From: Oxalobacteraceae bacterium OTU3CINTB1
GTDB taxonomy: Bacteria; Pseudomonadota; Gammaproteobacteria; Burkholderiales; Burkholderiaceae_D
Assembly (NCBI GenBank): GCA_024123955.1
Contig: CP099652.1
Span: 5,208,001 to 5,272,000 of the forward strand
Reading direction: 5' to 3'
DNA length: 64,000 bases
Position numbers and translations under genes: made by a program. A model generated the notes under the pieces. It had not been told where the DNA came from, made no database searches, and was given only the letters and a program-made list of their open reading frames with translations. Positions 2,169 through 40,342 of this stretch are shown here, one piece after another; within the stretch, counting starts at the first letter, position 1, and every line of letters begins with the position of its first letter.

Positions 2169-2411
2169 TTTTTTGAGACCAATCGAATGTAATAGACATT
2201 AAGAAAAGCGCGCGATAACTGAGATTCTTCGTTAACATTACCCCCCCCTGCAACGATTTTAGCCAAGGTCAGATGATTGAGACAACAATTTGGCGAAGGT
2301 CGATCCCCCCAAGGCATCGGAACGATATTTTGATGAACAGATATTTGCTGTCGAAGCTGGCGAATTCGGTGTACCTCCGCTTTAGATTTCAGCGGTCCGA
2401 GAGCGTACAGG

Positions 2412-2852: not shown

Positions 2853-2889
2853 ATGGTTTCCTTTGTGTGATGAATGTGTTGGAGTGGTG

Positions 2890-4327: not shown

Positions 4328-5823
4328 CGCGCCGTCCCCGCCAGATCGTCAATCATCAGGCCGGCGGTGGCCTTGGCCGAACCGACCACGCCAGGCACGC
4401 CCGCACCGGGATGGGTGCCGGCGCCAACCAGGTATAGATTGGCCAGGTCGGCATCGCGGTTGTGCGGGCGGAACCAGGCGCTTTGGGTGAGGATCGGCTC
4501 GAGCGAGAAGGCCGAACCGACGTGGGCGTTGAGCTGGTCGCGGAAATCGAACGGCGTGAAGAAGCGGCTGGTGACAAGCTGACTGCGCAGGCCCGGCATG
4601 TAGCGCTCTTCCAGGTAGGTCAGGATGCGGTCGCGATAGCGCGGACCTTCCACGTCCCAGTCGATGTCGGCGTTACCCAAGTGCGGCACCGGCGCCAATA
4701 CATAATGGCTGCCGCAACCGGGGGGCGCCAGCGACGGATCGGTCACGCACGGCGCGTGCAGGTACAGGGAAAAATCTTCGGCCAGCGTTTTGCCGTTGAA
4801 GATTTCCTTGATCAGGGGCTGGTAGCGCGGCCCGAAGCACACGGTGTGGTGCTGTAGCTGGCTGTGGTGGTGACTCAGGCCAAAGTACAGCACAAACAGC
4901 GAATTGGAATGGCGCTTGCCGGCCAGCGACTTGGCTTGCGCCGGGCCGCGCGGGTGCTGGCCCAATAGCTCGCCGTAGGTATGCACCACGTCGGCGTTCG
5001 ACGCCACTGCTTGCGCGGCAAAGACGCGGCCGTCTTCCAGCCGCACGCCGGTCACGCGGTTGCCGGACGTGTCGATCGCTGCCACTTTGGCACTGAGTTC
5101 GATCTTGCCGCCGATGTCTTCGAACAGTTTTACCATGCCGTTAATCAGAGCGCCGGTACCGCCACGCGGAAACCACACTCCCCACTTGCGCTCGAGGGCG
5201 TGGATCAGGGTGTAGATCGACGAGGTGGCAAACGGATTGCCGCCGACCAGCAGCGAGTGGAAAGAGAACGCCATACGCAGTTGCTCGTCCTTGATGAAGC
5301 GCGACACCATGCCGTACACGCTCTTCCACGCTTCGAGCTTGGCCAGTTGCGGGCCGGCCGCCACCATGTCGCGGATCGACAGGAACGGCACCGCGCCCAG
5401 TTTCAGATAACCCTCGTCGAACACGGCTTTCGAGTAGGCCAGGAAGCGCTGGTAGCCGGCCACGTCGTCGGGGTTGCGGGCGTGGATCTGGCGGTCCAGT
5501 GCTTCCTGGTCGTTGGCGTAGTCGAAGTGGATGCCGTCTTCCCAGCACAGGCGATAGAACGGCGCCACCGGCAGCATCTCGACATAGTCGGACAGGCGCT
5601 TGCCAGCGACCGTAAACAGTTCTTCCAGTGCCGACGGGTCGGTAATCACGGTAGGACCGGCGTCAAACGTAAAACCCTGGTCGTGGTACACGTAGGCGCG
5701 GCCGCCCGGCTTGTCGCGCTGTTCCAGCAGCGTGGTCTGGATGCCGGCCGCCTGCAGGCGGATGGCAAGCGCGAGGCCGCCGAAGCCAGCGCCGATAACA
5801 ACGGCCTGTTTTGCTTGGTTCAC
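4324..5823 (-). CDS. crtI: Phytoene desaturase CrtI
   Basis: FAD-dependent desaturase converting phytoene to lycopene at the membrane surface; 499 residues. The dinucleotide-binding motif GAGFGG is at residues 11-16, followed by LEQRDKPGGRAYVYHDQGF and FDAGPTVITDP, typical of CrtI. The C-terminal bacterial phytoene dehydrogenase signature is seen as LYLVGAGTHPGAGVPGVVGS. I place the start at the GTG at 5823, which overlaps the crtY stop as GTGA; an upstream in-frame ATG at 6000 would lie deep inside crtY and add an unrelated Arg-rich stretch. A four-step desaturation to lycopene is assumed from the neighbouring cyclase. Confidence 0.96.
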   Translation of the reverse strand: MNQAKQAVVIGAGFGGLALAIRLQAAGIQTTLLEQRDKPGGRAYVYHDQGFTFDAGPTVITDPSALEELFTVAGKRLSDYVEMLPVAPFYRLCWEDGIHFDYANDQEALDRQIHARNPDDVAGYQRFLAYSKAVFDEGYLKLGAVPFLSIRDMVAAGPQLAKLEAWKSVYGMVSRFIKDEQLRMAFSFHSLLVGGNPFATSSIYTLIHALERKWGVWFPRGGTGALINGMVKLFEDIGGKIELSAKVAAIDTSGNRVTGVRLEDGRVFAAQAVASNADVVHTYGELLGQHPRGPAQAKSLAGKRHSNSLFVLYFGLSHHHSQLQHHTVCFGPRYQPLIKEIFNGKTLAEDFSLYLHAPCVTDPSLAPPGCGSHYVLAPVPHLGNADIDWDVEGPRYRDRILTYLEERYMPGLRSQLVTSRFFTPFDFRDQLNAHVGSAFSLEPILTQSAWFRPHNRDADLANLYLVGAGTHPGAGVPGVVGSAKATAGLMIDDLAGTAR

Positions 5824-6995
5824 GCGGATGTCCTGATCTGTTGAGGTTGAGTTTTGAATGCGGCTGCCACGGCCTGGCCCACGGGCACCGGCGGCTTGCC
5901 GGACAGCACGCGCAGCTGGTCGCCCAGTGTCGGGTGGCCAGCATAGAAGCGGGCGATCAGGGGCGCGGACAGCGTATAAAAGCGCTGCATCACGCGCCAA
6001 CGGCGGTCGGCATCGCCGGCCAGGAAAAGCATGCGGTTAAGTAGGCGGAAAAAGCCCTGGCGGCGCCATTCGCCGTTGGCGTGCTGGCGGATGGCGGCAA
6101 ACAGCGCTGGCGCCCGCAGGTCGGTTTGTATGGCAATGCATTCGGCCAGTCGTACCGCGTGCGGCAGCGAGTAGCCGGTAGTTGGGTGGAACAGGCCAGC
6201 GCGCAGCCCTGCGCTAGGCTGGCCGCGCAGGTCGACCCAGTAGCCATCGTGGTTGGACGCCAGCGTGATCGGCAGCGCGCCGCGTTCTTCGCGCAGTACG
6301 GCCACGATGGACCATCTGCGCGCAGCCGCATAGGCGGCGATGTTGGCGCGCAAACGGTCGGGATCGAGCTCGGGCGCATCGACGTAATGGGTGTCTTCGA
6401 TCAGCAGCCGCTCCGACCCGAACGGCAGCACGTACACGAAGCGGTAGCCGCCTTGCTGGGCCACGCTGGCGTCCATCAGGATCGGCGCCGTCAAGCCGTG
6501 CGGTGCAGCCAAGCGTACTTCCTGGCCGAGAAATGTTTGGAAGCCCAGCGCCAGCCGGTCGCTATGGACCGGGCCGCGACCATCGATCACGGCGCCCGCG
6601 TGCAGCACGGTGCCATCGACCAGCGTGACCGAGGTAGGCGTGAGCGAGGCAATGGTGGTGTTGGTGCGCAGCGTGTCCCCCAGGGCCGGGGTGAGCAGGC
6701 GCGCGAAATCTTCGGACGCGATGCTTGCATAGCCGCCGTCCAGTGTGCGTTTCAGGTCCGGGAAGATCACGTCGTAGCGCGGCCAGCGGGCCGAGACGAG
6801 CGGCGCGATCCAGGCGCGCTGGGCGTCATCGAGGTCGCTGTCGTGGAATGACCAGGTATGGTTGCCGCCGAGGTGCGCGTCCTGTTCCAGCACCAGTATG
6901 CGCAGCTCGGGGCGCGCCGTACGCAGGCGCCAGGCGATCAGGCCATTGGCAAGGCCGCCGCCGGCCAGGATCAGGTCGTAGGGTTTTGCGCTCAC
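5820..6995 (-). CDS. crtY: Lycopene beta-cyclase CrtY
   Basis: Cyclises both ends of lycopene to give beta-carotene. The 391-residue protein begins with the FAD-binding motif (DLILAGGGLANGLIAWRL), followed by LEQDAHLGGNHTWSFHD, the hallmark of proteobacterial CrtY. Further family elements are VIDGRGP and the stretch around residues 265-285 (LRAGLFHPTTGYSLPHAVRL). It overlaps crtX upstream (ATGA) and crtI downstream (GTGA), each by 4 nt. Confidence 0.96.
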   Translation of the reverse strand: MSAKPYDLILAGGGLANGLIAWRLRTARPELRILVLEQDAHLGGNHTWSFHDSDLDDAQRAWIAPLVSARWPRYDVIFPDLKRTLDGGYASIASEDFARLLTPALGDTLRTNTTIASLTPTSVTLVDGTVLHAGAVIDGRGPVHSDRLALGFQTFLGQEVRLAAPHGLTAPILMDASVAQQGGYRFVYVLPFGSERLLIEDTHYVDAPELDPDRLRANIAAYAAARRWSIVAVLREERGALPITLASNHDGYWVDLRGQPSAGLRAGLFHPTTGYSLPHAVRLAECIAIQTDLRAPALFAAIRQHANGEWRRQGFFRLLNRMLFLAGDADRRWRVMQRFYTLSAPLIARFYAGHPTLGDQLRVLSGKPPVPVGQAVAAAFKTQPQQIRTSA

Positions 6996-8431
6996 GCAGG
7001 TTCTCCTGCCGGTGCGCGCGCCAGGGCCTGCTCAACGACATCGGCCGCGCGCGCAGTGCCGCCTGCCTGCGCCAGTTCGGCCGACAATGGCGCCAGGCTG
7101 CGCTGGTATGACGAATCGCTCAGCAGCGCGCGCAGGTGCGCAGCCAGCGTGCTGGCGCCGCTGATCCGGGCCGACGCGCGTCGGCCGATGCCCGCATGGC
7201 TCACGCGCGCGGCCACGCCGGGCTGGTCGAAGGCGATCGGCAGCGCCAAGATCGGCGTGGCGGTGGCGATCGCATCCATCACGGTATTGAGGCCGGCGTG
7301 GGTGACCACAGCGTTGGCGCGTGCCAGCGCCGCCTGCTGTGGCGCGAATGCGCAAACAAGGGTTGCGCCGGGCGTGCCGGCGTGTTCGATGGCTTTGGCC
7401 TGGTGTTCGGAAAGGCCGCCACAATGGGCCGCCAGCAATTGCACGTCCAGCGCGCGGCAGGCCCGGGCGATGCGCTTGAAGGCACCGAAGCGCTGGCCCT
7501 GCAGGGTGCCCAGTGACGCGAAGACTAGCGGCCGGCCCTGATCGAAGGCGGGCAGCGGCGTGATGGTGTCCTGGGTTCCCGAACCCGCCCGCAGTGGCCC
7601 CACGTGATAAAAATTGGCGGGCAGGTGCTGGCGCGGAAAGTCGAAGCCGGCGATGGTCTGGCTGATCTGCGCCAGCGGCGACAGGCACTCGTGCATAGCG
7701 CCGCGCGCAGGTAAGCCCAGCCGGCGCGCCTGGCGTTCGATGGCACGGCGGTGCGGAGTCATGATCCAGTCGTATACGCAGCTGCTGCCAGCCACCATTT
7801 GCAAGCCGCGTTCGCTGGCATCGTAGCCAAATGGCATCACCGGCAGCGGCACGCCGGCCTCGCGGTTGACGGGCAACGCGCACGCTACCGAGATCAGGGG
7901 CAGTTGCAGCGCCTCGGCCACCAACCCGGCGGCCGCTTCCATCTGGTCGCCCAGCAGGGCGTCGATGCGCAGTGCCTCGATGGCATTGGGTAATTCCTCG
8001 CACAGCATGTCGGTGGCAGCAGCCATGTCGAGGATGACCTCGCGCAGGCCCAGCGGACTGCCGGGGCTGGCAGCGCGGCGCAGTGCGACCTCCATCGAGC
8101 CAGGTGGGAAGCGTTGGATGCCCAGTGCCTGGAAGGCGATGCCGGAAATGAGCGTGCCTCCCGCGTCGCCGGCTCTACCGTGTAAGGTGCTGGCGATGCG
8201 GGTGCCCAGGTAGGCAGCCGCGTCGGGCCGGTGCAGGAACGTCACCCGGTGGCCACGCCGAATCAGTTCGCCCGCCAGCGCTGCTAGCGCGCTGAAATGG
8301 CTGGGGAATGCCGGCGCCACCACGCCGAAATGGCGCGGTGACAGCAATCCGGGCATGCTGGGCTGATGCGCAAACGCCGCCTTTGGCACGCCAGGCGTGC
8401 TTGCCCATGCGGGGAAAACCGCGCCGGTCAC
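6992..8431 (-). CDS. crtX: Zeaxanthin glucosyltransferase CrtX
   Basis: GT1-family enzyme that transfers glucose from UDP-glucose to the hydroxyls of zeaxanthin, giving the polar diglucoside. The 479-residue protein has the N-terminal acceptor domain (HFGVVAPAFPSHFSALAALA at about residue 34) and the C-terminal UDP-binding signature (THAGLNTVMDAIATATPILA, then PIAFDQPGVAARV). About 25 extra residues precede the usual start; an internal Met at residue 27 would give the usual length, but the ATGA overlap with crtE favours the longer form. Its presence predicts zeaxanthin glucosides as end products. Confidence 0.94.
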   Translation of the reverse strand: MTGAVFPAWASTPGVPKAAFAHQPSMPGLLSPRHFGVVAPAFPSHFSALAALAGELIRRGHRVTFLHRPDAAAYLGTRIASTLHGRAGDAGGTLISGIAFQALGIQRFPPGSMEVALRRAASPGSPLGLREVILDMAAATDMLCEELPNAIEALRIDALLGDQMEAAAGLVAEALQLPLISVACALPVNREAGVPLPVMPFGYDASERGLQMVAGSSCVYDWIMTPHRRAIERQARRLGLPARGAMHECLSPLAQISQTIAGFDFPRQHLPANFYHVGPLRAGSGTQDTITPLPAFDQGRPLVFASLGTLQGQRFGAFKRIARACRALDVQLLAAHCGGLSEHQAKAIEHAGTPGATLVCAFAPQQAALARANAVVTHAGLNTVMDAIATATPILALPIAFDQPGVAARVSHAGIGRRASARISGASTLAAHLRALLSDSSYQRSLAPLSAELAQAGGTARAADVVEQALARAPAGEPA

Positions 8432-20565: not shown

Positions 20566-21203
20566 TTCTATCTTTCGACGAGGTGACAGACGCTCGCCGG
20601 TCCAGGACTGGTCGTGCAGACGCACCAACGGAGACATGTAAGTACGCGCGCGACAAAGCACACGGCACATCCACCGCAAAAAATAATCCCAGGTCTGAAA
20701 AAGCTAGAGCGTCCAATAGGCAAGACCACACCCCGGGTCTTTGCACAATGATCGTGACCGGCCGGTCTTCTGGCTCGCCGTCGTCCTCCCCGGTTCCTGC
20801 CTTCCCGCCCCATTAATTCAGGCAGTGGCGTTGAACCGGCTCGTCAGGCTTACAGCAGCGGGGGCTGCGCCGGAATGGCGGGGATGAATATCCCGCGCGT
20901 CACCGGCTTCCCGTTTCACCCCGCCATCGGTTGATGGCGGGACACCGTTCACTTAAGCGCTGGATTCTACAGGCAACGTTGGGCCTTTGTCACTCATCAA
21001 GTGCCGCCGTGAGGCTACACCAGGTATATAGCCCGAGCGAGACCGGCAAGTGTTTAACTGGTGGGTAATGACAAGGAGACTCACCTGCTTCCCGCACAAA
21101 GAAAAATTGCCAAGCGGTTACAAAATACGCACTTCTTGAGGCGACTTATCGGCTATATTCTGTGCCTAGAGGATTGTCTGGTCACGCTATTAAGGAGCGA
21201 AGC
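20566..21203. other. Riboswitch leader and intergenic spacer
   Basis: The part between the receptor start and about 20757 is the riboswitch expression platform; on the minus strand it has a small stem AAGACC/GGTCTT and T-rich tracts that could form a switchable structure. From about 20950 to 21203 there is a spacer marking the change from GC-rich core genes to the more A+T-rich accessory block. Confidence 0.5.
20758..20948 (-). promoter_or_regulatory. Cobalamin (B12) riboswitch
   Basis: On the minus strand the conserved elements appear in order: GGTGTC start (20941-20946), GGGAAGCCGGTG (20901-20912), GCAGCCCCCGCTGCTGTAA (20850-20868), the B12-box core GCCACTGCC (20821-20829), GGGAAGGC near 20800, and GAGCCAGAAGACC (about 20763-20776). 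These match the AdoCbl riboswitch consensus closely. Intracellular B12 binding is known to repress expression of downstream genes, here a TonB receptor and PepSY protein. Confidence 0.93.
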
Positions 21204-22235
21204 TTGGGTTTTTTCACGGATGACGAATTAGGATCGCTCAAAATTACAAACATGATCCTCCACGTTGTTGGTGGCGGTGAGTTCAATCCGGCGCCGGCCA
21301 GGGCGGTGGAGCACGAGCAGTTCTTCCTAGCCCGCATTGGAAACACTGATGCGTCGCCCGTGTACAGCTTTGCGGAGACGTCGCTGACAAAGGCGGAAGT
21401 GCAGCGCATGTTTACCAGCGAGATTTCTTTCGAAGACGGTGCGCAAAATTTGGCCCGAGAGTTTTCAAAGCTTCACGTTAAGACCAGCAGTGATGGAGCG
21501 CTCTTCATGTTCGAACTGTCGGTCAAGGATAAGAATACAAAACTGTATAGCCTTATCAAGTACGACTATCGCGAAGCCATTGAACAGCCCGATGGGGAAC
21601 ATGGGCTGTTGAGACGCATTGTCCATGCATTTATTGCTGACAAAAAGGCGATACAAAAATCAGCGATCATAAGGGTCAAGGATGGGGTAGCTGAGACCGT
21701 CATTTCGACAACCGATAGGATGAAGCAAGCACCGGCCATCGGCGACTACTTCGCGACGTTCCTTGATGCTACAAGGAGCCTTAGCGACGAAGAGCTCAAC
21801 CAAAAAACCGTTGACCTGGTTCGCAACTTGTTAGGTGAAAACAAGGAGCATCTGCCGAACAAGAATGTCGCGCTGGCGTACGGTATCGCCAAAAACGTTT
21901 TGCGCGATCGGCAGGAAATAAATGAAGAAGCGATTATTGATGCTGTCTTGGCAGCTGCGGGGAATCCGCAAGATGAAACTGTACAGTCCCGCCTGCGTAC
22001 CGTCACCGCGAGGAAGATTCGCGGCGCAAGACTCGATGGACTCGGCTTCAAGCCCAACCCTCGAATCCTCAAGCGCCCTACCATTCGCAAAGTTAGAACT
22101 GTAGAGGGCGTCACGATCACCTACCCTGAACAAGACGGGGCAGTTACCGTACTGAGGAAAAAAACCGATCGTGGTGGGGAGACGATTACGATCGAAACAG
22201 AGAAGGTGACGGAGGATTCAGTTGTCGGAAATTAA
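21204..22235 (+). CDS. NdpA/YejK-like nucleoid-associated protein
   Basis: A 343-residue member of the 37-kDa nucleoid-associated protein family. The opening GFFTDDELGSLKITNMILHVVG matches the family start, followed by FFLARIGNTDASPVYSF. I choose the TTG at 21204 because AAGGAG lies 6 nt upstream and because it begins where family members begin; a GTG at 21162 is in frame. The C-terminal third (residues about 260-343) is basic and rich in Lys/Arg/Thr. Accessory copies of this family occur in defence-type islands, unlike the core yejK. It overlaps the next gene by 14 nt, implying coupled translation with a membrane protein. Confidence 0.85.
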   Translation: MGFFTDDELGSLKITNMILHVVGGGEFNPAPARAVEHEQFFLARIGNTDASPVYSFAETSLTKAEVQRMFTSEISFEDGAQNLAREFSKLHVKTSSDGALFMFELSVKDKNTKLYSLIKYDYREAIEQPDGEHGLLRRIVHAFIADKKAIQKSAIIRVKDGVAETVISTTDRMKQAPAIGDYFATFLDATRSLSDEELNQKTVDLVRNLLGENKEHLPNKNVALAYGIAKNVLRDRQEINEEAIIDAVLAAAGNPQDETVQSRLRTVTARKIRGARLDGLGFKPNPRILKRPTIRKVRTVEGVTITYPEQDGAVTVLRKKTDRGGETITIETEKVTEDSVVGN

Positions 22236-23748
22236 GCTCGCCGCCGTGATTGACAGGCTAGTGGCCGCCGACGAAGCGTTCGTCGCTGAGACGCCCGAGC
22301 GCGTCACGTTGTCTCAGCTGAGCCTGCCGTCAGCGAACGAGCTGCGAGCTCTGATTTCGCAGGCCGGCTTAATAGCGCTTGTCTACGATGGCGCCAACGA
22401 AGACTGGTCGAGCCTTGATCTTGTGGAGGCGTATGCTCCTTACCGCATAACGTTTGCAAAACCTGCCGTCTCTGCGAGCGAACTACTCGTTCTTACGAAC
22501 ACGGCATTTTCTGCTTTTCTTAGAACCGAAAACCCAGCAGCGGTTTGGCGCATCGCCTTGCTCGGTGCGTCGATCTTCACTGAAGGACGAACATACACGA
22601 GCTGGGCTGACAAGGCGTCAGCCCCGCTCGCGGTGAGGAAGAAAAGCCCCCGGTCTCTCGTACGCGAGGCCAGCGGCAATCGAATTGTGCCTCCAACTGT
22701 GGCGCCTTGGACATTGGTTGACTCAAGTTTCGTCCCCCAATCAGCAGCAGCGGTCCTATGGGCAAACGCCAGCATTGCAGCATGCATGCGCTCCTTGGCG
22801 GACGATATTGATAGTGAAAGCGGCGAACTGAAGTTCAAAGGTCCGCCACGCCTTACATTTAAACTACACGATCAGCCGAACAAATACTTCGACGAACTCG
22901 GGTCTGACGGCTTCGCAGCCTTGCACCTCGCGACAGCTTGGGTTTTTGAGAACGAACGTGAAGCGGAGGTTCGCCATATACTTTTTGCCTGCGAAATTGC
23001 GCGGTCAAATGGCGCAGGCGATAGCGAGTTGCTTCTGTTCGGTAGGAATATCATGCCCGCACTCGATGGTGCCAAAATCGCCTACCAAATGTCGATTTCC
23101 GAGGTGGGAAAGGACACGCTAAAAAGCCTAGCGGACCTCCGAAAATCCGTAACAGAAGATACCTCGAAGGTCACAGAAGGTACAAGGCAAGTCGCAGCGG
23201 CTGTTGCGGGAGCGCTAGCGCTAGGATTTGGTCTCATCGCCGCTCGTCTCTCGACATCTACACCACGCTGGCTTCTCATAACTGTCATGGTCATCGTCGT
23301 GTTGTACGTTACAGCGATAATTTTTTCAGGATACGACTTCATACGTCTACAACGAAACATCAGACGGCAGTGGCAGTCTCGCTTGTATCGGTTTTTACCG
23401 CCAGAAGAGTACAAGTCGATGGTTGCGACCCCGACCGCGCACGCGGAGAGGACATTTAAAATAACAGCATGCGTTGGCGGGGTTGCAGTGGCATTGCTGG
23501 CTGTAGCAATCTTTTGCGATTGGGCCGCTGCCGCCTCTGCAACGGCGTCAACTGATGCGAATACCGAGGCGCCTGTCGAAGCTGGGGGAAAGGCAAAGGT
23601 TCAGGTTCCAGCTGCGGCAAATGCCCACACTTCGCTGCCGATATCTACCGGTGCGGCGAAACAGGAACTTGAAAAACAGGCTTCTTCTGCTGCCGCGCAA
23701 GAAGGCAAGGAAAAGGCACAGACTGTCCCCTCCACTGCCAAACCCTAG
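22222..23748 (+). CDS. Unknown three-helix membrane protein paired with NdpA-like protein
   Basis: A 508-residue protein not recognised. It starts at a TTG at 22222 with GGAGG 7 nt upstream, inside the end of the NdpA-like gene. Residues 1-320 are soluble and mixed alpha/beta; a heptad-like Ser/Thr/Lys stretch at about 290-322 precedes membrane segments at about 323-342, 350-370 and 413-433. The tail after 435 is low-complexity, rich in Ala, Glu, Lys and Thr. The layout (cytosolic sensor-like half plus membrane half, coupled to a DNA-binding partner) resembles two-gene abortive-infection modules, but that function is inference. Confidence 0.75.
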   Translation: MSEIKLAAVIDRLVAADEAFVAETPERVTLSQLSLPSANELRALISQAGLIALVYDGANEDWSSLDLVEAYAPYRITFAKPAVSASELLVLTNTAFSAFLRTENPAAVWRIALLGASIFTEGRTYTSWADKASAPLAVRKKSPRSLVREASGNRIVPPTVAPWTLVDSSFVPQSAAAVLWANASIAACMRSLADDIDSESGELKFKGPPRLTFKLHDQPNKYFDELGSDGFAALHLATAWVFENEREAEVRHILFACEIARSNGAGDSELLLFGRNIMPALDGAKIAYQMSISEVGKDTLKSLADLRKSVTEDTSKVTEGTRQVAAAVAGALALGFGLIAARLSTSTPRWLLITVMVIVVLYVTAIIFSGYDFIRLQRNIRRQWQSRLYRFLPPEEYKSMVATPTAHAERTFKITACVGGVAVALLAVAIFCDWAAAASATASTDANTEAPVEAGGKAKVQVPAAANAHTSLPISTGAAKQELEKQASSAAAQEGKEKAQTVPSTAKP

Positions 23749-23840: not shown

Positions 23841-24116
23841 ATGATATCAATTTCAACTTGGCGATTCACCCGAAACCATCGTACACCTGCCGGCTTCTTA
23901 AACGCAAACCGGCCGAGTACGAATGCGCTGTCCGTGCTTTACCGCTGGCAAACCCTCGCAAAAAACAGATCTTTCGAAGTGACGGTCGACGAGGATGACA
24001 AACTAGAGGCAACCCTTTGTTGTAGCACCGACGACATGGCGGCAGGAAGCCAAATAGACGCGATGTGCTTAGAGCTAGGCGTTGTACGCGGGCCGGTCTC
24101 CGCTAGCCAAAGTTAA
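23841..24116 (+). CDS. Small hypothetical protein
   Basis: A 91-residue ORF with GGAGC 9 nt before its ATG. The middle (NALSVLYRWQTLAKNRSFEVTVDEDDKLEATLCC) reads like a compact beta-rich domain with Cys residues; nothing is recognised. It follows the membrane protein gene by 92 bp on the same strand and overlaps the 3' end of the convergent tcmP-like gene by 14 bp. It may be a third member of the NdpA/membrane unit or a spurious frame. Confidence 0.4.
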   Translation: MISISTWRFTRNHRTPAGFLNANRPSTNALSVLYRWQTLAKNRSFEVTVDEDDKLEATLCCSTDDMAAGSQIDAMCLELGVVRGPVSASQS

Positions 24117-24951
24117 ACTCGCGATTCTTCCCTTGTGCGACATCGCCCCAGATGCGATTAGGGAGCGGATGTCGACTAAAGAATACCAAGTGGTAAAGAG
24201 GGCGATTTGCATTGTCGCGGACTAGCGGCATTCTTTGACTAATTGTGAACCCGAGCGCCGCGACTAGCCCGCACCAGTAGTCGAAGAACGCCTCATCAGC
24301 GTGGCCGCTGACAAACGTGGCAGGATCTATATGATCGCGCCAGCCAGGGGCCGTCCGGTCGAAACGAGCCCGCTCCGGATTGAACTCCATGAGAACATTC
24401 CGGCGCAAATCCATCGTACTGAAATGAACCGCGAAGTCCACATACTGCAATTTAGCGAGCTTTTCTATCACACCAAAATCCAAGTATTGCAAGTTATATG
24501 GGTCAAGGTACGCAAGACACAGGGCACCACTGGGGACAGCTTTTAGGACATCATCGACTGTTTCATCTGCCGGTCCTGTCAAAGCTTCGACTGGCGCACC
24601 AAAATATCGCAACCTAGCCTCACATGCTCTCGCGCGCTCCGCATCCAAATCACCAACTAAGCAAGAAGTGAAATCCGCCCTACCCAACCGAGAGTGCTGC
24701 CAAGCGATGAGCGAGCCGCCGTGGCGACTAATGCTCTCGCCCTTAACCTGAATACGGCCGGGGCCGCAGAAAAGGTCAACAAACACCCTGCTATTGAACT
24801 TCTTGCGAGCCTCTCGCGTTCCCTCGATATACTTGGCTAGGAATGTGTGCTTCTGAGACGGAACCCAATCGCCGACGCCGTCACCATTTCTGCCTCGCTC
24901 AATAGAGAGCAATGGGAACGGATCATTGTCGTAAGATAAAGTGAATGTCAT
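24103..24951 (-). CDS. tcmP: Three-Cys-motif partner protein TcmP (short form)
   Basis: A 282-residue TcmP-family protein. Family landmarks are WVPSQKHTFLAKYIEGTREA near the N-terminus, FVDLFCGPGR at residues 57-66, LVGDLDAER at about 98-106 and AYLDPYNLQYLDF at about 147-158. The glycine loop and DPY element look like a methyltransferase-type Rossmann fold, but TcmP activity is not established. It starts with AAAGG 4 nt before the ATG and lies 14 bp after a second, larger TcmP, as the last gene of a six-gene operon containing the three-Cys-motif protein it is named after. Confidence 0.85.
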   Translation of the reverse strand: MTFTLSYDNDPFPLLSIERGRNGDGVGDWVPSQKHTFLAKYIEGTREARKKFNSRVFVDLFCGPGRIQVKGESISRHGGSLIAWQHSRLGRADFTSCLVGDLDAERARACEARLRYFGAPVEALTGPADETVDDVLKAVPSGALCLAYLDPYNLQYLDFGVIEKLAKLQYVDFAVHFSTMDLRRNVLMEFNPERARFDRTAPGWRDHIDPATFVSGHADEAFFDYWCGLVAALGFTISQRMPLVRDNANRPLYHLVFFSRHPLPNRIWGDVAQGKNREFNFG

Positions 24952-24965
24952 ATAGCCTTTAAATG

Positions 24966-26225
24966 CTAGAACAACTTGACCTGACCGGAGCGCTCAATAA
25001 GGTCGCTATCGCCCATGTAGCGTGAATGCCTTTGGCGTTTTCCCTTTTGAGTCGTTATGATGATTTCCTTCTCTGCGGCGAGCATGGCCAGTGCATCGTG
25101 GTACATCTCAGCTGTAGCTGGGGAGGTATTGCATGTCGAAGAGAATAGCTCTGCGATCGTCAGAGGGCCAGGCCTAGCCACAATGTTCTCGGCTAGTTGC
25201 TCTACAAGCGAAATCTTGGTCGCGGCCCTTGCGACATCGTCGAATTGGAACCCACCATCGAATTCCTGTCTGAAGCCCATCGTCTGCGGAGACAACATAT
25301 CCAATCCAGCGCCACCGTAATGCACAAAGTGATTTTGGAACTTCCAATGGACTTGCTTCATCACATCCTGAGCTCTGTGGTGCTGAGCCAAATGCACAAG
25401 CCAATATTCACCATGTCCGTTTCCTTGTCCCCGAATAAAAAACGGGGTAAAGAATTTAGCTCCGCAATTCTTCACGAGTGCTTGGTACAGGGCCCCCTGG
25501 ATAAATCGACGCCAGTCTGCATCGTTCGCTTTTATATCCTCTACAGACTGCCCCCTAAGCGCGGTACGAATATCGATCGCCAACGCCTTGCTTACGTGAT
25601 CAGTAAACTCGTCGTTCGTATAGGTGGCAAATGACGAAACATGAAAGGTCAGAACGACCTCACTATTTGGCAGGCCCGTAAAAATCTCTTTGATCAGCGG
25701 CGCGGGCACCTCCATATAACCATACTGATCCAGAAAGAATAGCGCTCGATACGCTTTGGGTGTATGGCGCGAAACACTGGCGATCGTCGCTGAGGCAGCC
25801 ACACCAAACTCTTCGCAAATCAAGTGAATGCTCTTCCCGATCTGTGCGCCGTATCCCTCTTCACCTAATACCTTCGACAGATGATTGATGGCGTGCTTGT
25901 CTTTATCGATGAAGATGTACTGCACATCCAATTTCAGCTTCTTCGTCCGGTCGCGATTGATGGCAAATTCGGCCTCCTCCACCGCCTTAATCATCCTTAT
26001 TGGAGAACCCCACGCCATTTCCGATGTTCCGCGAATCCGGTAGAGCCCGCCACCACAAAAGCCGTCAACCAACGTCAGACGGAATCGATCCATCGCCCTA
26101 GACTTCAATGTCCGCTGCTCAAAATACCGAATCAAATAACCCACAAGGACCTCATGCTTAGTGAGGCTATGAGCATCTAGCTCTGCCGGGCCATTTCTCC
26201 AGTCGTAATGCTTCCCCTGCGCCAA
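24966..26225 (-). CDS. tcmP: Three-Cys-motif partner protein TcmP (long form)
   Basis: A 419-residue protein related to the shorter TcmP downstream. The N-terminal YDWRNGPAELDAHSLTKHEV and VLVGYLIRYFEQRT lead to VDGFCGGGLYR (residues 53-63), FIDKDKHAINHL (about 105-116) and FFLDQYGYMEVP (about 163-174), where DQYG replaces the DPYN of the short form. A C-terminal domain (about residues 330-419) looks like a winged helix. It starts at a TTG with GGA 6 nt upstream, 26 bp after the three-Cys-motif gene. Two TcmP variants in one operon suggest a heteromeric complex or distinct targets (inference). Confidence 0.83.
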   Translation of the reverse strand: MAQGKHYDWRNGPAELDAHSLTKHEVLVGYLIRYFEQRTLKSRAMDRFRLTLVDGFCGGGLYRIRGTSEMAWGSPIRMIKAVEEAEFAINRDRTKKLKLDVQYIFIDKDKHAINHLSKVLGEEGYGAQIGKSIHLICEEFGVAASATIASVSRHTPKAYRALFFLDQYGYMEVPAPLIKEIFTGLPNSEVVLTFHVSSFATYTNDEFTDHVSKALAIDIRTALRGQSVEDIKANDADWRRFIQGALYQALVKNCGAKFFTPFFIRGQGNGHGEYWLVHLAQHHRAQDVMKQVHWKFQNHFVHYGGAGLDMLSPQTMGFRQEFDGGFQFDDVARAATKISLVEQLAENIVARPGPLTIAELFSSTCNTSPATAEMYHDALAMLAAEKEIIITTQKGKRQRHSRYMGDSDLIERSGQVKLF

Positions 26226-26251
26226 GTGAAGTCCTTTAAGGTGGCTACTCG

Positions 26252-27115
26252 TTATTTACTCTTCTGAACCTTCGGAAATTGATCCCAGTGTTTGCCGGAA
26301 AGGACTCGTCCGGCCTTTCCTTTGCCCACGGCAGCAAGCTTAATTTCCTTGTCGTCATGGCGAACAATGTGGATTACAGTCCTCTTCGTCATGGAGTCTG
26401 CCGCATGCTCCACTGGCGCCCAATGGCCCCACTGCTTGAAGTGAAATGCCACCTTTGCGGCGCCACACTGCTTGCGTAATGCATCAGGCCACTGCGGCTC
26501 CATTGGCCGAGCCCCATGCCCAGACTCTCCTCCAGCGATCACCCAATCCACCCGGATCCCGCTTTCATTCCGCTCCAAAAAGGGAGAAATATCGACTGGT
26601 CCCAACAGGGGTTCACATGACAGAAATCGTACAGCAGGCGTTGCAAAAGCCAGCAAATGACGAATTCGCTTATCAGCCTCTGCCTGGTTTTCCACCGTAG
26701 TACCCAGCCAAACATTCGCAGGAAAATCGTACCCTTTAGGCAATTGCTTCCTAACGAGGTGAATGCGCTTAGTGAGCAGCAGCCAATCAAGATGAGGAGT
26801 CTTCGAAATCAATTCTAACAGGCGTAATCGATGAGGAACCAAGTCAGGGCGATTTTCAAAAACATCCGCCATCGAAGCACAAAATACACGCTTACGAACG
26901 CCCTCCGCTGCTGCTTCTGCGTCCCACTTCAACGGCTCCTTCCAATGCGCATCAGAAAAAAACCGGCGTTCAGATTTTGGCCCCCACACGTCCGCACCTA
27001 ATCGCTTGGCCCATGTCTCTGCATAGCAATGATCGCAGGCAGCGGACACCCGGATGCACCCCCACCAGGGATTAAATGTGTGGTGCGTCCATTCAATTGC
27101 AGCGTCTTTCCCCAT
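26252..27115 (-). CDS. Three-Cys-motif protein, phage Gp37/Gp68 (DUF5131) family
   Basis: A 287-residue protein with the defining N-terminal signature IEWTHHTFNPWWGC followed by SAACDHCYAE: Cys20, Cys27 and Cys30 (C-x6-C-x2-C). Further family features are VFCASMADVFENRPD, LLLTKRIHLV, WLGTTVENQAEADKRI, FLSCEPLLGPVD and DWVIAGGESGHGARPM. The Cys spacing recalls Fe-S radical-SAM enzymes, and the TIM-barrel-like pattern fits, but the chemistry is not known to me. It sits between the AlkB-fusion gene (104-bp gap) and two TcmP partners, which is the classic pairing. Confidence 0.9.
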   Translation of the reverse strand: MGKDAAIEWTHHTFNPWWGCIRVSAACDHCYAETWAKRLGADVWGPKSERRFFSDAHWKEPLKWDAEAAAEGVRKRVFCASMADVFENRPDLVPHRLRLLELISKTPHLDWLLLTKRIHLVRKQLPKGYDFPANVWLGTTVENQAEADKRIRHLLAFATPAVRFLSCEPLLGPVDISPFLERNESGIRVDWVIAGGESGHGARPMEPQWPDALRKQCGAAKVAFHFKQWGHWAPVEHAADSMTKRTVIHIVRHDDKEIKLAAVGKGKAGRVLSGKHWDQFPKVQKSK

Positions 27116-27219
27116 TACTATGTTCTTCAGTTAGTCCCGGCAAGAAGCTCTGAGAAGCTGCGCGCCGAAGGTTGCGTATTAAATTTCTTATCTATCATGC
27201 ATGAAGCGTTGGAAGGATT

Positions 27220-29430
27220 TCAGGTCGAGACTTTTCGGAAGGTCACTGAGACTCGCCTACCCCGAATAACGCCGGCATCAGCTCGCTTCTTAGCAATTTC
27301 ATGACTCCATTTGCTACGAGCCTCTCCTGCTAGAATCACAGCGCTACCACGAGGCAACATCTGTCGGTACTTCTGTTCCTCACCTTTCAACTTCCGGCTG
27401 AACACCATCTCCCACGTCTCGCGAAGGCTTATCGTCACGACAGGACCGCTGAAACAAGAAGGGCAATCAATGTGTTTAGAAATGCCTTGCCCCCCAGTGT
27501 ACTCATTCACAATTACTTGGTCAGGCACTTCTGGAACCAAACCTTCCTCGTACAGGCGTTGCGCGATCACCTGAGCCCAACTTGGCAGCGGCCCCATATA
27601 CGCACTAGGGTCCACACGGCGGGCTTTGTAATCGTAACGCCACCCGTAATGCTGAACGCGCCGAGCCATACTTGCATCCCATAGATTTGAGTCGATTACC
27701 TCCAAAAGCGCAAACTCCTCATCTGGCTCCAAGAAGGCGGGAATAATCGTCAACCCAGAAGGCGGGTCTAGCGCAGGCACCGAGTTCTCTTCAGTCAAAC
27801 TCGATGAAGACCGACGGACGCTTTCGGTTGCCAGAAACGAGGTTTGCGGATGCTCTTCTTCACCTCGTACGCTTTCGCTCTGCTTCTGAGCCGGCCTCGG
27901 TAACTTAAAGGGAATCGAAGCAACTGTCAGCCAAGAGCGGAATCCATCAACGTCCAATTTCGAGCTTACAGCCCCTGAAGGAACAGTGATTTCAACAAAC
28001 CCTTCAACGCTTAAAGCTGCCTGTTTTGCGGCTGCCTTAATTTTTCCTTCACCCGAGTACTTGTAAATACCAGACGGCAGGGTCAACGTTTGCTGCACAA
28101 GATGCGGGCAAACCTCACGCGCCAATGCTGTCGCAGCAGCCCGTATTCCAGAGGCCAAAAGGTCGTTTTCATACCATAAACCCCGTTGGCTCATCCGGCG
28201 CGACCACAGACTTTCCTTGCCGATGTTGATTTGGGCATGTTCATCGACTGGCTTCCAAGATACTTTGTCTTTGCACAATTTCCCCCAAAAATCGATGCCA
28301 TCCGGCCTTGCGAGCTTCCAAGTCCGCAAGGACAAATGACGCCTTTCCGTGTCGCTTCCACGGAGCAAACCCGGCAGGCGGCTATATCCTGCAACGTAGC
28401 CAGTCAGAATAGCGCCAGTCCACCACGCTCCGGGCGGAATAGCTCGCCAATCTTCTTTCCATTTCATGTAGCGTTCTGGGTCAGGCCGTAATAGCACAAG
28501 CTGAAACACCAGTGCCACAATATTTTCATGAATACCGAGGTCTTGAATTGTTCCCCGATCCTGAAGCAGTAGCATTGTCGCATCCATGAGACTATCGATG
28601 AGGGCATCGTCCTCGCCTAGTTCCCTGGCACGCAAACATACATTCTCCAAAATTCGCTGCGCCCTCCAGTCATCGTAGATGTTCGGACTCGACAGCTCAT
28701 CAACTATGGCCCCCCAGAGCGGAGAGGCACCTCGTGTGCAATCTTCTGACCATAGTGCTGCACGCAGCCATGGGGCCTGCGCGAACTTCGTCGCATCACT
28801 TCGCTTACCCCCGGAAAGCGACTCACATAGGATTTGCAGCCAAGGTCCAATTGTGGGAACCGTTCCAAGTGCCATGGCCGCAGCCCCTCTCAAGTAATCC
28901 CAATTTAGTGGGTGAGCAATTTTCGAGGCCTGCTCGCACGGTGGACACTCTTCAACCTTGGCCACCATCTTCACTTCGACGGGCTGCGGGGGTACCTCCA
29001 TGTCAGAAAATCTCCGCACCATCCCCAAGAGGTGCAATCGAAACTCACTTGACTCTACGCTAAAGTACTTCGCGGCAAACAGAGGAAGCGGACCCGGCCA
29101 ACGGAGAATCCTATCTGCATCAGAGAGCCGAGAAAGCGCCTTAGGGCTCCAGTAGGACCCTTGCCAAACCATGACTTCAGCTTGCGGCAACTTAGCTACA
29201 TCAAACCAAACAACAACGACTTTCAACTCTGAATTAGGTGGCCGCTCAACGCAGTCAATGCCTGCGCGCACCCATCCTTCAGAGTTCGGAAATATCCAAT
29301 CCTCAACTAACGAATTCAAAAATGTATGGTGGTCCAAACCAACAGCAAGAACGTTCGTGTCGCGTCGCGTAGCGCCGGAATCGTTCGGTTCGCTGAGTAG
29401 CTCTAGTTGGCTCGGGGATTGATCATTCAT
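27220..29430 (-). CDS. Large protein with C-terminal AlkB-type 2-oxoglutarate dioxygenase domain
   Basis: A 736-residue protein. Residues about 560-736 are an AlkB-like Fe(II)/2OG dioxygenase: VNEYTGGQGISKHIDCP supplies the HxD iron ligands (His653, Asp655), WSHEI the second His (710), and RVSVTFR the 2OG-binding R-x5-R (726, 732). AlkB enzymes remove alkyl groups from bases in DNA or RNA. Residues 1-550 are unrecognised: a Trp-rich N-terminal region (YWSPKALSRLSDADRILRW), a Cys pair (ECPPCEQ) and long helices, then a polar linker. Start ATG overlaps the helicase stop as ATGA. Usual AlkB proteins are about 200 residues, so this is a fusion. Confidence 0.88.
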   Translation of the reverse strand: MNDQSPSQLELLSEPNDSGATRRDTNVLAVGLDHHTFLNSLVEDWIFPNSEGWVRAGIDCVERPPNSELKVVVVWFDVAKLPQAEVMVWQGSYWSPKALSRLSDADRILRWPGPLPLFAAKYFSVESSEFRLHLLGMVRRFSDMEVPPQPVEVKMVAKVEECPPCEQASKIAHPLNWDYLRGAAAMALGTVPTIGPWLQILCESLSGGKRSDATKFAQAPWLRAALWSEDCTRGASPLWGAIVDELSSPNIYDDWRAQRILENVCLRARELGEDDALIDSLMDATMLLLQDRGTIQDLGIHENIVALVFQLVLLRPDPERYMKWKEDWRAIPPGAWWTGAILTGYVAGYSRLPGLLRGSDTERRHLSLRTWKLARPDGIDFWGKLCKDKVSWKPVDEHAQINIGKESLWSRRMSQRGLWYENDLLASGIRAAATALAREVCPHLVQQTLTLPSGIYKYSGEGKIKAAAKQAALSVEGFVEITVPSGAVSSKLDVDGFRSWLTVASIPFKLPRPAQKQSESVRGEEEHPQTSFLATESVRRSSSSLTEENSVPALDPPSGLTIIPAFLEPDEEFALLEVIDSNLWDASMARRVQHYGWRYDYKARRVDPSAYMGPLPSWAQVIAQRLYEEGLVPEVPDQVIVNEYTGGQGISKHIDCPSCFSGPVVTISLRETWEMVFSRKLKGEEQKYRQMLPRGSAVILAGEARSKWSHEIAKKRADAGVIRGRRVSVTFRKVST

Positions 29431-30542
29431 CTTGTGAGAATAGGGGGTTGGGGAAGTGAGTTTAGTTGCTGCTTGTTAAGTTCCTGGGGGCCATTGACGA
29501 GCACTAGCGTATCGCGAGCCCGTGCGCAAAGCATGTACATCCTGCGGCGCTTGATTGGCGTGTTAGCAGGAAGAGAGCGATCTAGGTCCTGCAAGAACAT
29601 AGTATCAAATTCTAACCCAATAGCAGACTCGCCGGAAAGAACAGTTACCCCCTCATCCCGCATCTGTATGCCAAACTCATCACCTTTACCCCGTTTCTTT
29701 GTGTACCAATCGACTCGGTATCCCTTTAATCTTTTCGTTAATAGCTGAGTCATAGATTCAACGTCTTCAATAGCAAAACAAATTACACCTACAGACTCTC
29801 GCCGATTAACAAACCTATTCGCCACAGCATCTGCGAAAGAGTTCCAGCTATCAAGCGTCAAGACATAGGGAACATCTCCAGCTAGACGGCTTGGCATAGC
29901 TTGGGGAACAATCCTGTCAACGTGAAAATGCCCAACAACCTTCGCAATATTGGCGGTATTACGATGATTATGCAGGAGGACAAACACGTTAGGAAATCCC
30001 AACTTCGAAATTTCCCCTACGCTGGCACCATCACTCATAGTCGTTTGATGCTCATCTGCAAAAATCGATATTTTTTTTGATCCAAATCTCATAGCCCATT
30101 CAAAAAATTTTAAGGGCAAATTTTGACCTTCATCAATAATTAAGTGATCTAACGAAGGCGCGACGTTTGCGCCTTCATAATTCGCAATTATTGTATTCCA
30201 ATCCCAGGAATATCCACCGCCGTAGGGAAGTGTTGGGACGTCACATCCGAAGCGGTTGCGGTAATCTGTGGAAACAAACCGATGCATCGTGTTCGTTTCG
30301 AGTTTTTTACTTTGCTCTTTCCCTAAGTGACTAGCAATTGCAGTAAGCAATCGCCCTCTAGTTATTAAAATAACTTTTAAATTGTGCTCTTCTGACGTTA
30401 AAGTTAGCGCTCGCCAGATTGCCATAGAAGTTTTGCCAGATCCAGGCGGACCCGAAACAAGCATCGACTCATATGGAGAATGCTCATACACTGCGAGCTG
30501 ATCTTTCTCTTTTATAACATCTCTAAATCGGGGAAGTCTCAT
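29427..30542 (-). CDS. Superfamily 1 helicase-like ATPase
   Basis: A 371-residue protein, short for a UvrD/Rep-type enzyme. Walker A is GPPGSGKT at residues 31-38, Walker B IIDEGQN at about 135-141, motif III-like ISIFADEHQTTM at about 163, motif V SAIGLEFDTMFLQD at about 308 and motif VI RRMYMLCARARDTLVLV at about 345. The accessory 1B/2B domains of true UvrD are largely missing, so it may be a remodelling ATPase rather than a processive helicase. Overlaps of 4 nt (ATGA) with both neighbours show tight coupling with the methyltransferase-like and AlkB-fusion proteins. Confidence 0.88.
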   Translation of the reverse strand: MRLPRFRDVIKEKDQLAVYEHSPYESMLVSGPPGSGKTSMAIWRALTLTSEEHNLKVILITRGRLLTAIASHLGKEQSKKLETNTMHRFVSTDYRNRFGCDVPTLPYGGGYSWDWNTIIANYEGANVAPSLDHLIIDEGQNLPLKFFEWAMRFGSKKISIFADEHQTTMSDGASVGEISKLGFPNVFVLLHNHRNTANIAKVVGHFHVDRIVPQAMPSRLAGDVPYVLTLDSWNSFADAVANRFVNRRESVGVICFAIEDVESMTQLLTKRLKGYRVDWYTKKRGKGDEFGIQMRDEGVTVLSGESAIGLEFDTMFLQDLDRSLPANTPIKRRRMYMLCARARDTLVLVNGPQELNKQQLNSLPQPPILTR

Positions 30543-31372
30543 ATTTGAAATTGCGAACTTGAAATTTTTGAAATAACCGGCCTGACGAACAACGCGTAAT
30601 GAATTTTTCGCGGCTTGTCGGTATCGATGAAATTCTCTACGCAGTCGGCCTCAATTGTAAAACCCTCACTAATCATCTTGTCTCTAAAAGCGGGGAAATT
30701 AGCACCAGCTGCCTCTCGAGTCGTGTTGGTATAAAAGACGAAAACCGGCCCCCATCCAATCTTCTTACAAGCCTCAATAATCTCATCTGCCAAAGCATTG
30801 ACGTCAATAGTCGCACTAGCGAAGAGATACGAAAGGATAACAACAATGATTTTGTTAGGTGGTTGCTTCGCAAATTGCACATCATTGAGGCTTTCATGAA
30901 ACGAAATCCATGTCTCAGGATGCGTCTCATTCACCTCACGAACTTTTGTCGCAAACATAGAGCCAACGTCTCGCATGGATTTACATCGGTCTATACCATG
31001 ATAAATAAACGACTCTTGAGGACCAACGATGTTAGCCAAAGCAAGCCCCGCAGTAAATGGCCCGCAGCCGATATCTAAGACCGTAATGCCTGCCATATCG
31101 GCAGGTCCACTCACCAACTGATTGAAAGCATGAATTAATTCGTCAACGTGCGCTTTCTGATTAAAATAGGCATAAAGCATTGCACGATCCCTAGGCTTAA
31201 GATTGTCTACTTCTTCATCGAAATCAGCCTGTCCTCCGCCGATACCAATCCGAAAATTCCAATCTGGGCTGTGCCCAAAAATCTCGTTATTCTTTGTCCT
31301 GGGATCCTCGCGCAACGGCGTAACAATCTCGTCGCGCCTGAACTTTTCGAGCCAATCTTTTCTTTGATACAC
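30539..31372 (-). CDS. SAM-dependent methyltransferase-fold protein
   Basis: A 277-residue protein. I start it at the GTG at 31372, which has GAGGAG 5 nt upstream; a TTG 15 nt earlier is possible. The SAM-binding loop is GITVLDIGCGPFTAGLALAN (about residues 95-114), preceded by a helical region with RDRAMLYAYFNQKAHVDELI, and followed by IYHGIDRCKSM and IIVVILSYLFAS strands. The class I methyltransferase fold is clear; the substrate is not. It is the first gene of the operon leading to the helicase, AlkB fusion, three-Cys-motif and TcmP genes. An inverted repeat lies 71 bp upstream. Confidence 0.8.
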   Translation of the reverse strand: MYQRKDWLEKFRRDEIVTPLREDPRTKNNEIFGHSPDWNFRIGIGGGQADFDEEVDNLKPRDRAMLYAYFNQKAHVDELIHAFNQLVSGPADMAGITVLDIGCGPFTAGLALANIVGPQESFIYHGIDRCKSMRDVGSMFATKVREVNETHPETWISFHESLNDVQFAKQPPNKIIVVILSYLFASATIDVNALADEIIEACKKIGWGPVFVFYTNTTREAAGANFPAFRDKMISEGFTIEADCVENFIDTDKPRKIHYALFVRPVISKISSSQFQI

Positions 31373-31747
31373 AGTCTCTCCTCGCAAATATGAAAATTTC
31401 GACAGCTACTCAAGAATTAGCCGCCCGCCTATTTCTGTTGCCCATCATCTAGGGATGATGTTGCACTGTAAATTCGCTGAAAATCTATCGAAATGTCACG
31501 GATGAAGAATTTTTTATTGCAAAAATGACGACTCCAACCAAAAAAAGTCACGTTATCGCCCCCCTGAAACACAACAAGCATGTATCAGAAAATGTTCAAG
31601 CGTTCGCACAGGCTCTGCACTGATTAAAGTACATATTGGGTGTCGCGCTTTGCAGTCACCGAATCAAGGCACTGAGAGAGAGAAGCAGGGACAGCTAGAG
31701 TAAGACTTTTGAAATTACGGGGGCATACAAATGAAACTTGGAGAACC
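31373..31747. other. Intergenic region upstream of the methyltransferase operon
   Basis: Contains the likely promoter of the six-gene operon near 31390-31470, including the inverted repeat CATCATC-TAGG-GATGATG. A 32-codon ORF at 31525-31623 on the plus strand has no convincing ribosome binding site. Nothing else recognised. Confidence 0.45.
31443..31460. promoter_or_regulatory. Inverted repeat, candidate operator of the methyltransferase-helicase-AlkB-TCM operon
   Basis: Perfect 7-bp inverted repeat CATCATC/GATGATG with a TAGG spacer, centred about 80 bp before the first gene's start codon. No regulator gene lies next to it. It could be an operator or part of an mRNA leader hairpin. Confidence 0.35.
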
Positions 31748-39748: not shown

Positions 39749-40342
39749 ATGAATTTGCAACTTGACGACAGAGATTCGAAAAACATGCAAAATCTAAAAT
39801 CGGAGGCTGCTTCTGAGCAAAGACGGCCGTTAGTCTTCTTAGACATTGACGACGTCCTATGTGTGGATCGCACACTCAACACTCGCCAGGTCTCGGCTGC
39901 ACTTGCTGGCGACGTCACAGTGAACGCAGATGAAGTGTGGAAGCATATCTTTCACGCAGCTGCGGTGGAAAATCTCCGACAGCTGCACGCCGAGTATGGC
40001 CCGGATTACGTAGTCAGCTCATCATGGACGCTACACCTCAGCAGAGAGCAGCTGTGTGCCACATTTCAACTTACCGGATTGGATTTTGTAGCAGAGAATC
40101 TACACCAATTCTGGTGTTGCCCACGCGACGAGGGAAGTTGCCGCCTTTGGGAAATTGAGGCGTGGCTCGACACCCATTTGCCTAAGGGGGCCATGCCATT
40201 TGTGATTATCGACGATGTCATAAGCGGCGGGTCGTTAGTTGGGTCCGACCTCGAGACGCACACTGTTTTTTGCAATGCCAGCGCAGGTTTCATGTACCCG
40301 CAGCTGCAGGCCGCCCGGAAAATTTTATCCGCCAATATGTAA
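39749..40342 (+). CDS. HAD-superfamily phosphatase-like protein (HAD_SAK type)
   Basis: A 197-residue protein with the HAD motif I VFLDIDDVLCVDR (nucleophile Asp32, general acid Asp34), motif II-like DYVVSSSWTLHLS and motif IV-like FVIIDDVISGG. The layout (long insert after motif I, SSSW motif) is that of HAD domains described in Swiss-army-knife RNA-repair proteins, where they are predicted to remove phosphates from RNA ends. It closes the accessory operon starting at 37529. Other small HAD phosphatases are possible, so the RNA link is tentative. Confidence 0.75.
   Translation: MNLQLDDRDSKNMQNLKSEAASEQRRPLVFLDIDDVLCVDRTLNTRQVSAALAGDVTVNADEVWKHIFHAAAVENLRQLHAEYGPDYVVSSSWTLHLSREQLCATFQLTGLDFVAENLHQFWCCPRDEGSCRLWEIEAWLDTHLPKGAMPFVIIDDVISGGSLVGSDLETHTVFCNASAGFMYPQLQAARKILSANM

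Follow-up and report, generated by a model that had tools for sequence, protein, structure and literature searches.

A conserved methyltransferase, SF1 ATPase, and AlkB fusion unit next to a separate DUF5131-TcmP cassette in an Oxalobacteraceae genome

The 64,000-nucleotide stretch of the Oxalobacteraceae bacterium OTU3CINTB1 genome analyzed here (contig CP099652.1, positions 5,208,001 to 5,272,000, referred to below as the window) carries a run of six open reading frames (ORFs), all on the minus strand. These encode a methyltransferase (31387-30539), an SF1 ATPase (30542-29427), a fusion protein with a C-terminal AlkB domain (29430-27220), a DUF5131 protein (27115-26252), and two TcmP proteins (26225-24966 and 24951-24103). 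An earlier note, made from the sequence alone, had joined all six into a single operon with a possible base-modifying arm and a demethylating arm. Its gene positions, strand, overlaps, and gaps are borne out by the ORF list of the window: at each of the first two junctions, the adjoining genes share 4 bp (ATGA), and the remaining gaps measure 104, 26, and 14 bp. However, the conserved unit comprises three genes, not six, namely those for the methyltransferase, the SF1 ATPase, and the AlkB fusion (the triad). The DUF5131-TcmP-TcmP genes form a separate mobile cassette that only seems to belong to the triad, so that the run looks like two modules. The most favored, albeit tentative, interpretation, to which we would give slightly less than an even chance, is that the triad is an accessory unit, positioned beside a separate cassette, that writes and oxidizes nucleic acid bases in the course of genetic conflict.

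Conservation of the three-gene unit

Species genomes were scanned with an alignment of the fusion protein, and the best 80 of 206 confirmed loci were taken. The fusion-bearing set consists of 39 loci: 38 that match well into the N-terminal half of the protein (L002-L038 and L040) and one (L082) from a scan of viral contigs. The methyltransferase and SF1 genes adjoin the fusion gene in 37 of these 39, so the three components named in the earlier note are indeed kept together across genera and phyla; the homologue searches found all three proteins on contigs of matching lengths. Both exceptions (L009 and L034) are devoid of the methyltransferase gene; L034 has an SF1 fragment and L009 a weak SF1 match 2.4 kb away. 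Frame breaks are seen in L011, L021, L031, and L040, L037 ends at a contig edge, and L038 duplicates the L019 locus within one metagenome-assembled genome (MAG). In L017 and L024, the methyltransferase gene is found at the opposite end of the operon, indicating that the link within the triad survives rearrangement. In the 31 loci with near full-length ORFs, the pairwise distances obtained for one of the three proteins track those obtained for the others, with correlations of 0.88 to 0.92, a level reached in 0 of 2,000 permutations, with common species history contributing to the agreement.

According to the record titles, used as tree labels, the fusion-bearing loci span eight phyla; because many of these loci are MAGs, isolated odd phylum placements may be misbinned. 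The triad is apparently a rare, co-inherited, patchily spread, and much-transferred unit of unusual domain architecture, and the case for it consists of its co-conservation, its parallel divergence, the intact methyltransferase and AlkB motifs, and the occurrence of triad and cassette each on its own. The L082 contig, 91.9 kb long and filed as viral, bears the entire triad.

Domain composition of the encoded proteins

The fusion protein (736 aa; positions 27220..29430, minus strand, as are all its parts) deserves the label of an AlkB fusion only in its C-terminal part, where Pfam detects AlkB at residues 597-732 (E value of 1.2e-17). Together with the predicted structure, this match outlines a probable ALKBH8-like AlkB dioxygenase domain of about residues 550-736 (27223..27783). 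The remainder is not AlkB. It has no Pfam match in its N-terminal half, which is predicted to consist of an ADP-ribosyltransferase-like (ART-like) domain of the DarT or Tpt1-KptA fold (residues 22-158, 28957..29367) and an ADP-ribosylglycohydrolase-like (ARG-like) domain of the ARH3/DraG fold (residues 174-380, 28291..28911); these are followed by a third alpha/beta domain, of no assigned fold (residues 390-503, 27922..28263), and a low-confidence linker (residues 517-553). Despite the likeness in predicted fold, identity to the respective enzymes is only ~10%, and both domains apparently lack catalytic residues. Judged by eye, the ART-like domain seems to lack a conserved Glu at the strand where one would be expected, and the positions of the ARG metal motifs read RGAAAMALGTVP and PPGAWWTGAILTGY, devoid of the acidic pairs, so that the metal-binding Asp positions seem to be lost. 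With the catalytic positions taken to be those that we assume for DarT and ARH, both domains would be catalytically inactive.

In contrast, the AlkB residues N642, Y644, H653, D655, H710, R726, and R732 are invariant in 46 sequences, leaving the Fe(II)/2-oxoglutarate site intact (the functional roles of these residues, and of the Walker boxes of the ATPase, are assumed here). Among PDB entries, ALKBH8 is the top sequence match of this domain and, tied with ALKBH6, has the joint top structural score, while Escherichia coli AlkB is among its weakest sequence relatives. The demethylating arm of the earlier note therefore amounts to a guess, as the nearest relative both hydroxylates and methylates its target; according to one report, ALKBH8 performs both reactions on wobble uridine derivatives of tRNA (PMC7694415). 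There are also clear differences from the human protein with its RRM-AlkB-methyltransferase architecture: the methyltransferase is encoded here by a separate gene, Pfam detected no RRM either in the fusion or in 36 N-terminal halves, and neither the ART/ARG-like half nor the SF1 partner has a counterpart in ALKBH8.

The methyltransferase ORF extends to 31387 from a TTG codon, but the GTG at 31372 is the more likely start, because it sits behind a GAGGAG box and because the nearest relatives have the same length as the resulting product (277 aa; 30539..31372, minus strand). The product appears to be a class I S-adenosylmethionine (SAM) methyltransferase. This assignment is upheld by the SAM motif DIGCGPFTAGLA and by generic matches, the best of which in PDB is trans-aconitate methyltransferase (E value of 5.7e-5; METTL17, 0.096) and in PADLOC is C3a159 (3.1e-11). 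However, Pfam support is weak, with Methyltransf_23 (17.6 bits, the best match) and Rsm22 (16.0 bits, E value of 0.0085) both falling under the cut-off. With respect to a Trm9-like type, the matches seen are either generic or weak ones to Rsm22/METTL17. The SF1 gene (29427..30542, minus strand) encodes a small HelD/UvrD-like ATPase or helicase of 371 aa with GPPGSGKT and DEGQN boxes, which matches AAA_19 in Pfam (30 bits, 6.2e-7) and, weakly, several PADLOC models. Its profile has HelD (6wvk) as the top PDB match (1.2e-19), although the protein is only about half as long as the HelD chain of 774 residues.

The same parts are found unfused in seven Bacteroidota-type loci (L053, L054, L059, L063, L065, L125, and L128), where the SF1 ATPase, a 2CompART/ARG protein, an N-terminally extended methyltransferase, and AlkB are products of separate genes (tetrads), with the AlkB gene being divergent in L063 and L128. 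Locus L126 shows an SF1 gene and an ART gene at a contig end; in L127 (3950-9870), a DUF1848 gene occupies the position of AlkB behind genes for SF1, 2CompART, and a methyltransferase-like protein barely detected by the family profile; and nine further loci carry the methyltransferase and AlkB genes without the other parts. A Pedobacter genome (G335) harbors two four-gene sets (L065, 9947-11282, and L128), one of which has a second, convergent AlkB gene beside it.

The Pfam domains 2CompART and 2CompARG (PF22546 and PF22545) share both folds, and their order, with the predicted N-terminal half of the fusion. The ART proteins of the tetrads match PF22546, but the window protein, which differs also in being fused to AlkB, matches neither model, and there were no matches to either in 36 N-terminal halves (E value limit of 10, HMMER filters on). 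Profile comparison of these ART proteins with the N-terminal half from the window was insignificant (hhalign E values of 0.03-0.05, probability of <2%), as short motifs agree in order and nothing more. Searches of the open-license PMC literature gave no source for the "2-Component" name. In an unrooted tree of 84 AlkB domains, 38 fusions and four short AlkBs lie on one side of a branch with 100/99 support and the seven tetrads on the other, with three label changes needed. This pattern fits a probable single origin of the fusion, whereas the link to AlkB could have been either gained repeatedly or old and accompanied by losses, both being compatible with the unrooted tree.

Distribution and possible functions

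The N-terminal-half profile was detected in 3 of the 74 genomes from the genus of the window (its own genome included), in 1 of 349 genomes of a sample of the order (again its own), and in 3 of 348 genomes of the genus of a Pseudomonas carrier; PF22546 was detected in 4 of the 345 genomes sampled from Bacteroidota, the center genome included. In large samples, scoring was limited to the few best first-look candidates of each genome, and a PF22546 scan of 249 genomes from the phylum of the window, with no hits, is uninformative, given that 0 of 14 controls were detected. The fusion has no match in phage records, and none of the 106 matching plasmid records covers 80% of it, the 15 listed comprising the AlkB part only. 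The triad proteins are not matched as a system in PADLOC 2.0.0 (2023), where the fusion has no match at all, and no name for the set was found in the open-license PMC literature. The remark in the earlier note that no named system has this content thus holds for the triad within these two sources, although an earlier description elsewhere is possible.

The functional interpretation given in the earlier note is partly supported. We suggest that the SF1 ATPase would open or track along a nucleic acid, the tandem folds of ADP-ribosylation enzymes, with catalysis seemingly lost, might serve as a reader or clamp recognizing the target strand, and the methyltransferase and the ALKBH8-like dioxygenase could then act in succession on the same exposed base. 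By analogy with the two activities of ALKBH8 on tRNA, the chemistry might combine methyl transfer with hydroxylation or oxidative removal. That the triad takes part in conflicts with phages or other elements is suggested by its patchy spread and by defense genes in the vicinity of some loci: DUF4297 (L036), Dsr2 (L059), LmuB (L128), the ABC-3C middle component (L114), and, by eye, type I restriction-modification genes (L023). In addition, a neighbor in L006 scores above the cut-off for NTP_transf_2 and below it for SMODS (23.9 bits), and one in L125 scores below the cut-off for MukB (21.6 bits). Apart from the L023 genes, these named neighbors were chosen by eye and then checked, and therefore do not represent a random sample; of 10 proteins compared with PADLOC, 4 matched (those in L036, L059, and L128 and a type IIG enzyme in L137, described below).

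Other observations are less favorable to such a role. Two loci lie, by eye, among housekeeping genes (L008, with rpoB/rpoC-like genes, and L135), and the PADLOC families of neighbors show no clear excess over the control. The tally covered 35 fusion loci with up to two neighbors per side (118 proteins) and 25 other AlkB loci with up to three per side (129 proteins), at the level of at most 25 families. It left out L038 (the copy of L019), L012 (a near copy of L011), L009 and L034 (no methyltransferase), and all proteins of >1,100 aa; the 29 control loci were reduced by L042, L051, L080, and L083, on account of a partial triad, size, or being viral, and the control loci L048 and L070 fall on the fusion side of the AlkB tree. 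As the two family lists look alike, no enrichment is claimed. An antiphage role of the triad is plausible and favored but unproven.

Two other readings deserve consideration, each of them rather improbable in our view. In the first, the triad is a horizontally spread bacterial equivalent of ALKBH8, with tRNA or rRNA as the target of hypermodification and without any part in defense. The sequence and structural ranking of ALKBH8, its pairing of methylation with hydroxylation, the weak Rsm22/METTL17 likeness of the methyltransferase, and the nine loci with methyltransferase and AlkB alone all agree with this possibility. However, the very patchy distribution (3 of 74 within the genus), the generic top PDB match of the methyltransferase, which is not a tRNA methyltransferase, and the lack of an RRM, along with SF1 and ART/ARG-like parts that have no ALKBH8 equivalent, speak against it. 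In the second, similarly doubtful reading, the triad undoes damage that toxins or phages inflict on DNA or RNA in the form of lesions or ADP-ribose-type adducts: the SF1 ATPase and the ART/ARG-like folds would locate the damaged base, AlkB would remove the damage, and the methyltransferase would restore or protect the base. AlkB is a classical family of direct-reversal enzymes, and the intact AlkB active site and the three-Cys DUF1848 gene in the expected place of AlkB in L127 are in line with repair, as is the action of ARG enzymes on ADP-ribose conjugates, described in one report (PMC9503650). Against this stand the apparent loss of the ARG metal ligands and the weak relationship to E. coli AlkB, and such a pathway would not necessarily include a dedicated methyltransferase.

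The adjacent DUF5131-TcmP cassette and implications

The cassette follows the triad behind a 104-bp spacer (27116..27219) and is encoded on the same strand. It consists of genes for DUF5131 (Gp37/Gp68, three-Cys; 26252..27115; Pfam, 1.7e-81, 274 bits), TcmP 1 with a C-terminal GMT-wHTH domain (24966..26225), and TcmP 2 (24103..24951), the latter two identified with NCBIfam TIGR04474 (219 and 157 bits, respectively). In PADLOC, DUF5131 matches PDC-M41B (2.9e-54) and PDC-M30B (4.7e-54), TcmP 1 matches PDC-M30A (5.4e-22), and TcmP 2 matches PDC-M41A (2.3e-6). The candidate systems PDC-M30 and PDC-M41 share the adjacent DUF5131 and TcmP genes with the cassette, which differs from them in having two TcmP genes and in standing, in this window only, beside the triad. 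Single-sequence profiles of the cassette proteins found no match in any of the 82 other loci (L002-L083, 39 of them fusion bearing) within flanks of up to 10 kb, shorter in some, and the six-gene set proposed in the earlier note was found in this window alone.

Relatives of the cassette proteins were sought in a plasmid collection and, for TcmP 1, also in viral contigs, where none were found. The best plasmid matches of DUF5131 (79%) and TcmP 1 (65%) are both on the Acidovorax plasmid p1-T1 (L137), where the DUF5131-TcmP-TcmP order is kept and starts 54 bp after a gene for a GIY-YIG nuclease. That gene is the last of a tandem (1942-8040) that also encodes a type IIG restriction-methyltransferase (PADLOC, 7.6e-266) and a DEAD/DEAH helicase; the helicase and the nuclease have no PADLOC match at 1e-8. 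Elsewhere, one TcmP gene is divergent, with translesion-polymerase genes (a Burkholderia glumae plasmid) or DUF262 genes (Paraburkholderia pSYMBR3459) in the vicinity, and in Methylobacter one TcmP gene follows DUF5131. Because these relatives have other neighbors, the cassette can be said to occur without the triad, sometimes beside restriction-type operons. In Sinorhizobium meliloti, one putative transcription unit contains a TcmP gene along with that of the Hna defense helicase (PMC12445080).

The six-gene system as a unit was accordingly rejected, and a joint function of all six genes is now very unlikely. The common strand, the short gaps, and the spacer, in which no minus-strand terminator-like site is listed, would agree with it, as would the replacement of AlkB by DUF1848 in L127, which indicates that three-Cys enzymes can become part of such operons (both DUF1848 and DUF5131 are presumably radical-SAM-like). 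These points are set against the 0 of 82 other loci, as judged with single-sequence profiles and in part with short flanks, and the plasmid relatives that adjoin type IIG restriction-modification, DUF262, and other genes. Least likely of all, and already disfavored, is an assortment of genomic-island cargo without any joint function, which the A+T-rich region and the varying neighbors would allow but which is at odds with the way in which the three genes are conserved together and diverge in parallel and with the joint presence of the same parts in Bacteroidota.

The A+T-richer block of the earlier note is real with respect to the upstream neighbor, with a G+C fraction of 0.46-0.53 over 24-32 kb versus 0.66-0.67 at 32-35 kb (2-kb windows), but it is not unique, as most of the 36-64 kb region has 0.48-0.56. 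No insertion boundary could be drawn at this site, since one relative (G023) shares the flanking sensor gene (81% identical) but has otherwise different neighbors. A gene for a nucleoid-associated protein (NA37; Pfam, 5.6e-6) is found at 21162-22235 (plus strand) and overlaps by 14 bp the gene at 22222-23748 (plus strand), whose product looks, by eye, membrane bound; an annotated nucleoid-associated gene with an overlapping neighbor is also located near the DUF5131-TcmP pair of the Methylobacter plasmid (L140, 17970-19260). About 8 kb from the triad, at 39749-40342 (plus strand), there is a gene of the HAD_SAK_2 family (PF18143, 5.2e-18), named after Swiss Army Knife RNA repair proteins.

A more specific version of the favored interpretation, which for now we consider unlikely, is a prokaryotic immune system that marks foreign nucleic acid with a hypermodified base, with a methyltransferase and an ALKBH8-like oxidizer loaded by the SF1 ATPase and aimed by a dead ART/ARG reader. 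If this is true, we know of no earlier defense unit in which an AlkB enzyme is combined with repurposed ART and ARG domains, nor of an earlier bacterial equivalent of the methylase-hydroxylase pair of ALKBH8. The triad offers a bacterial system in which the pairing of methylation and hydroxylation on a base can be put to the test. The distinction made here sets the conserved unit apart from the mobile DUF5131-TcmP cassette, which is also found beside other restriction-type genes, and it supplies a genetic context (SF1, methyltransferase, and AlkB) for the 2CompART and 2CompARG domains of Pfam. It also connects AlkB dioxygenases of the ALKBH8 branch, ADP-ribose folds of the DarT/ARH type, and helicase-methyltransferase operons, which are seldom discussed together.

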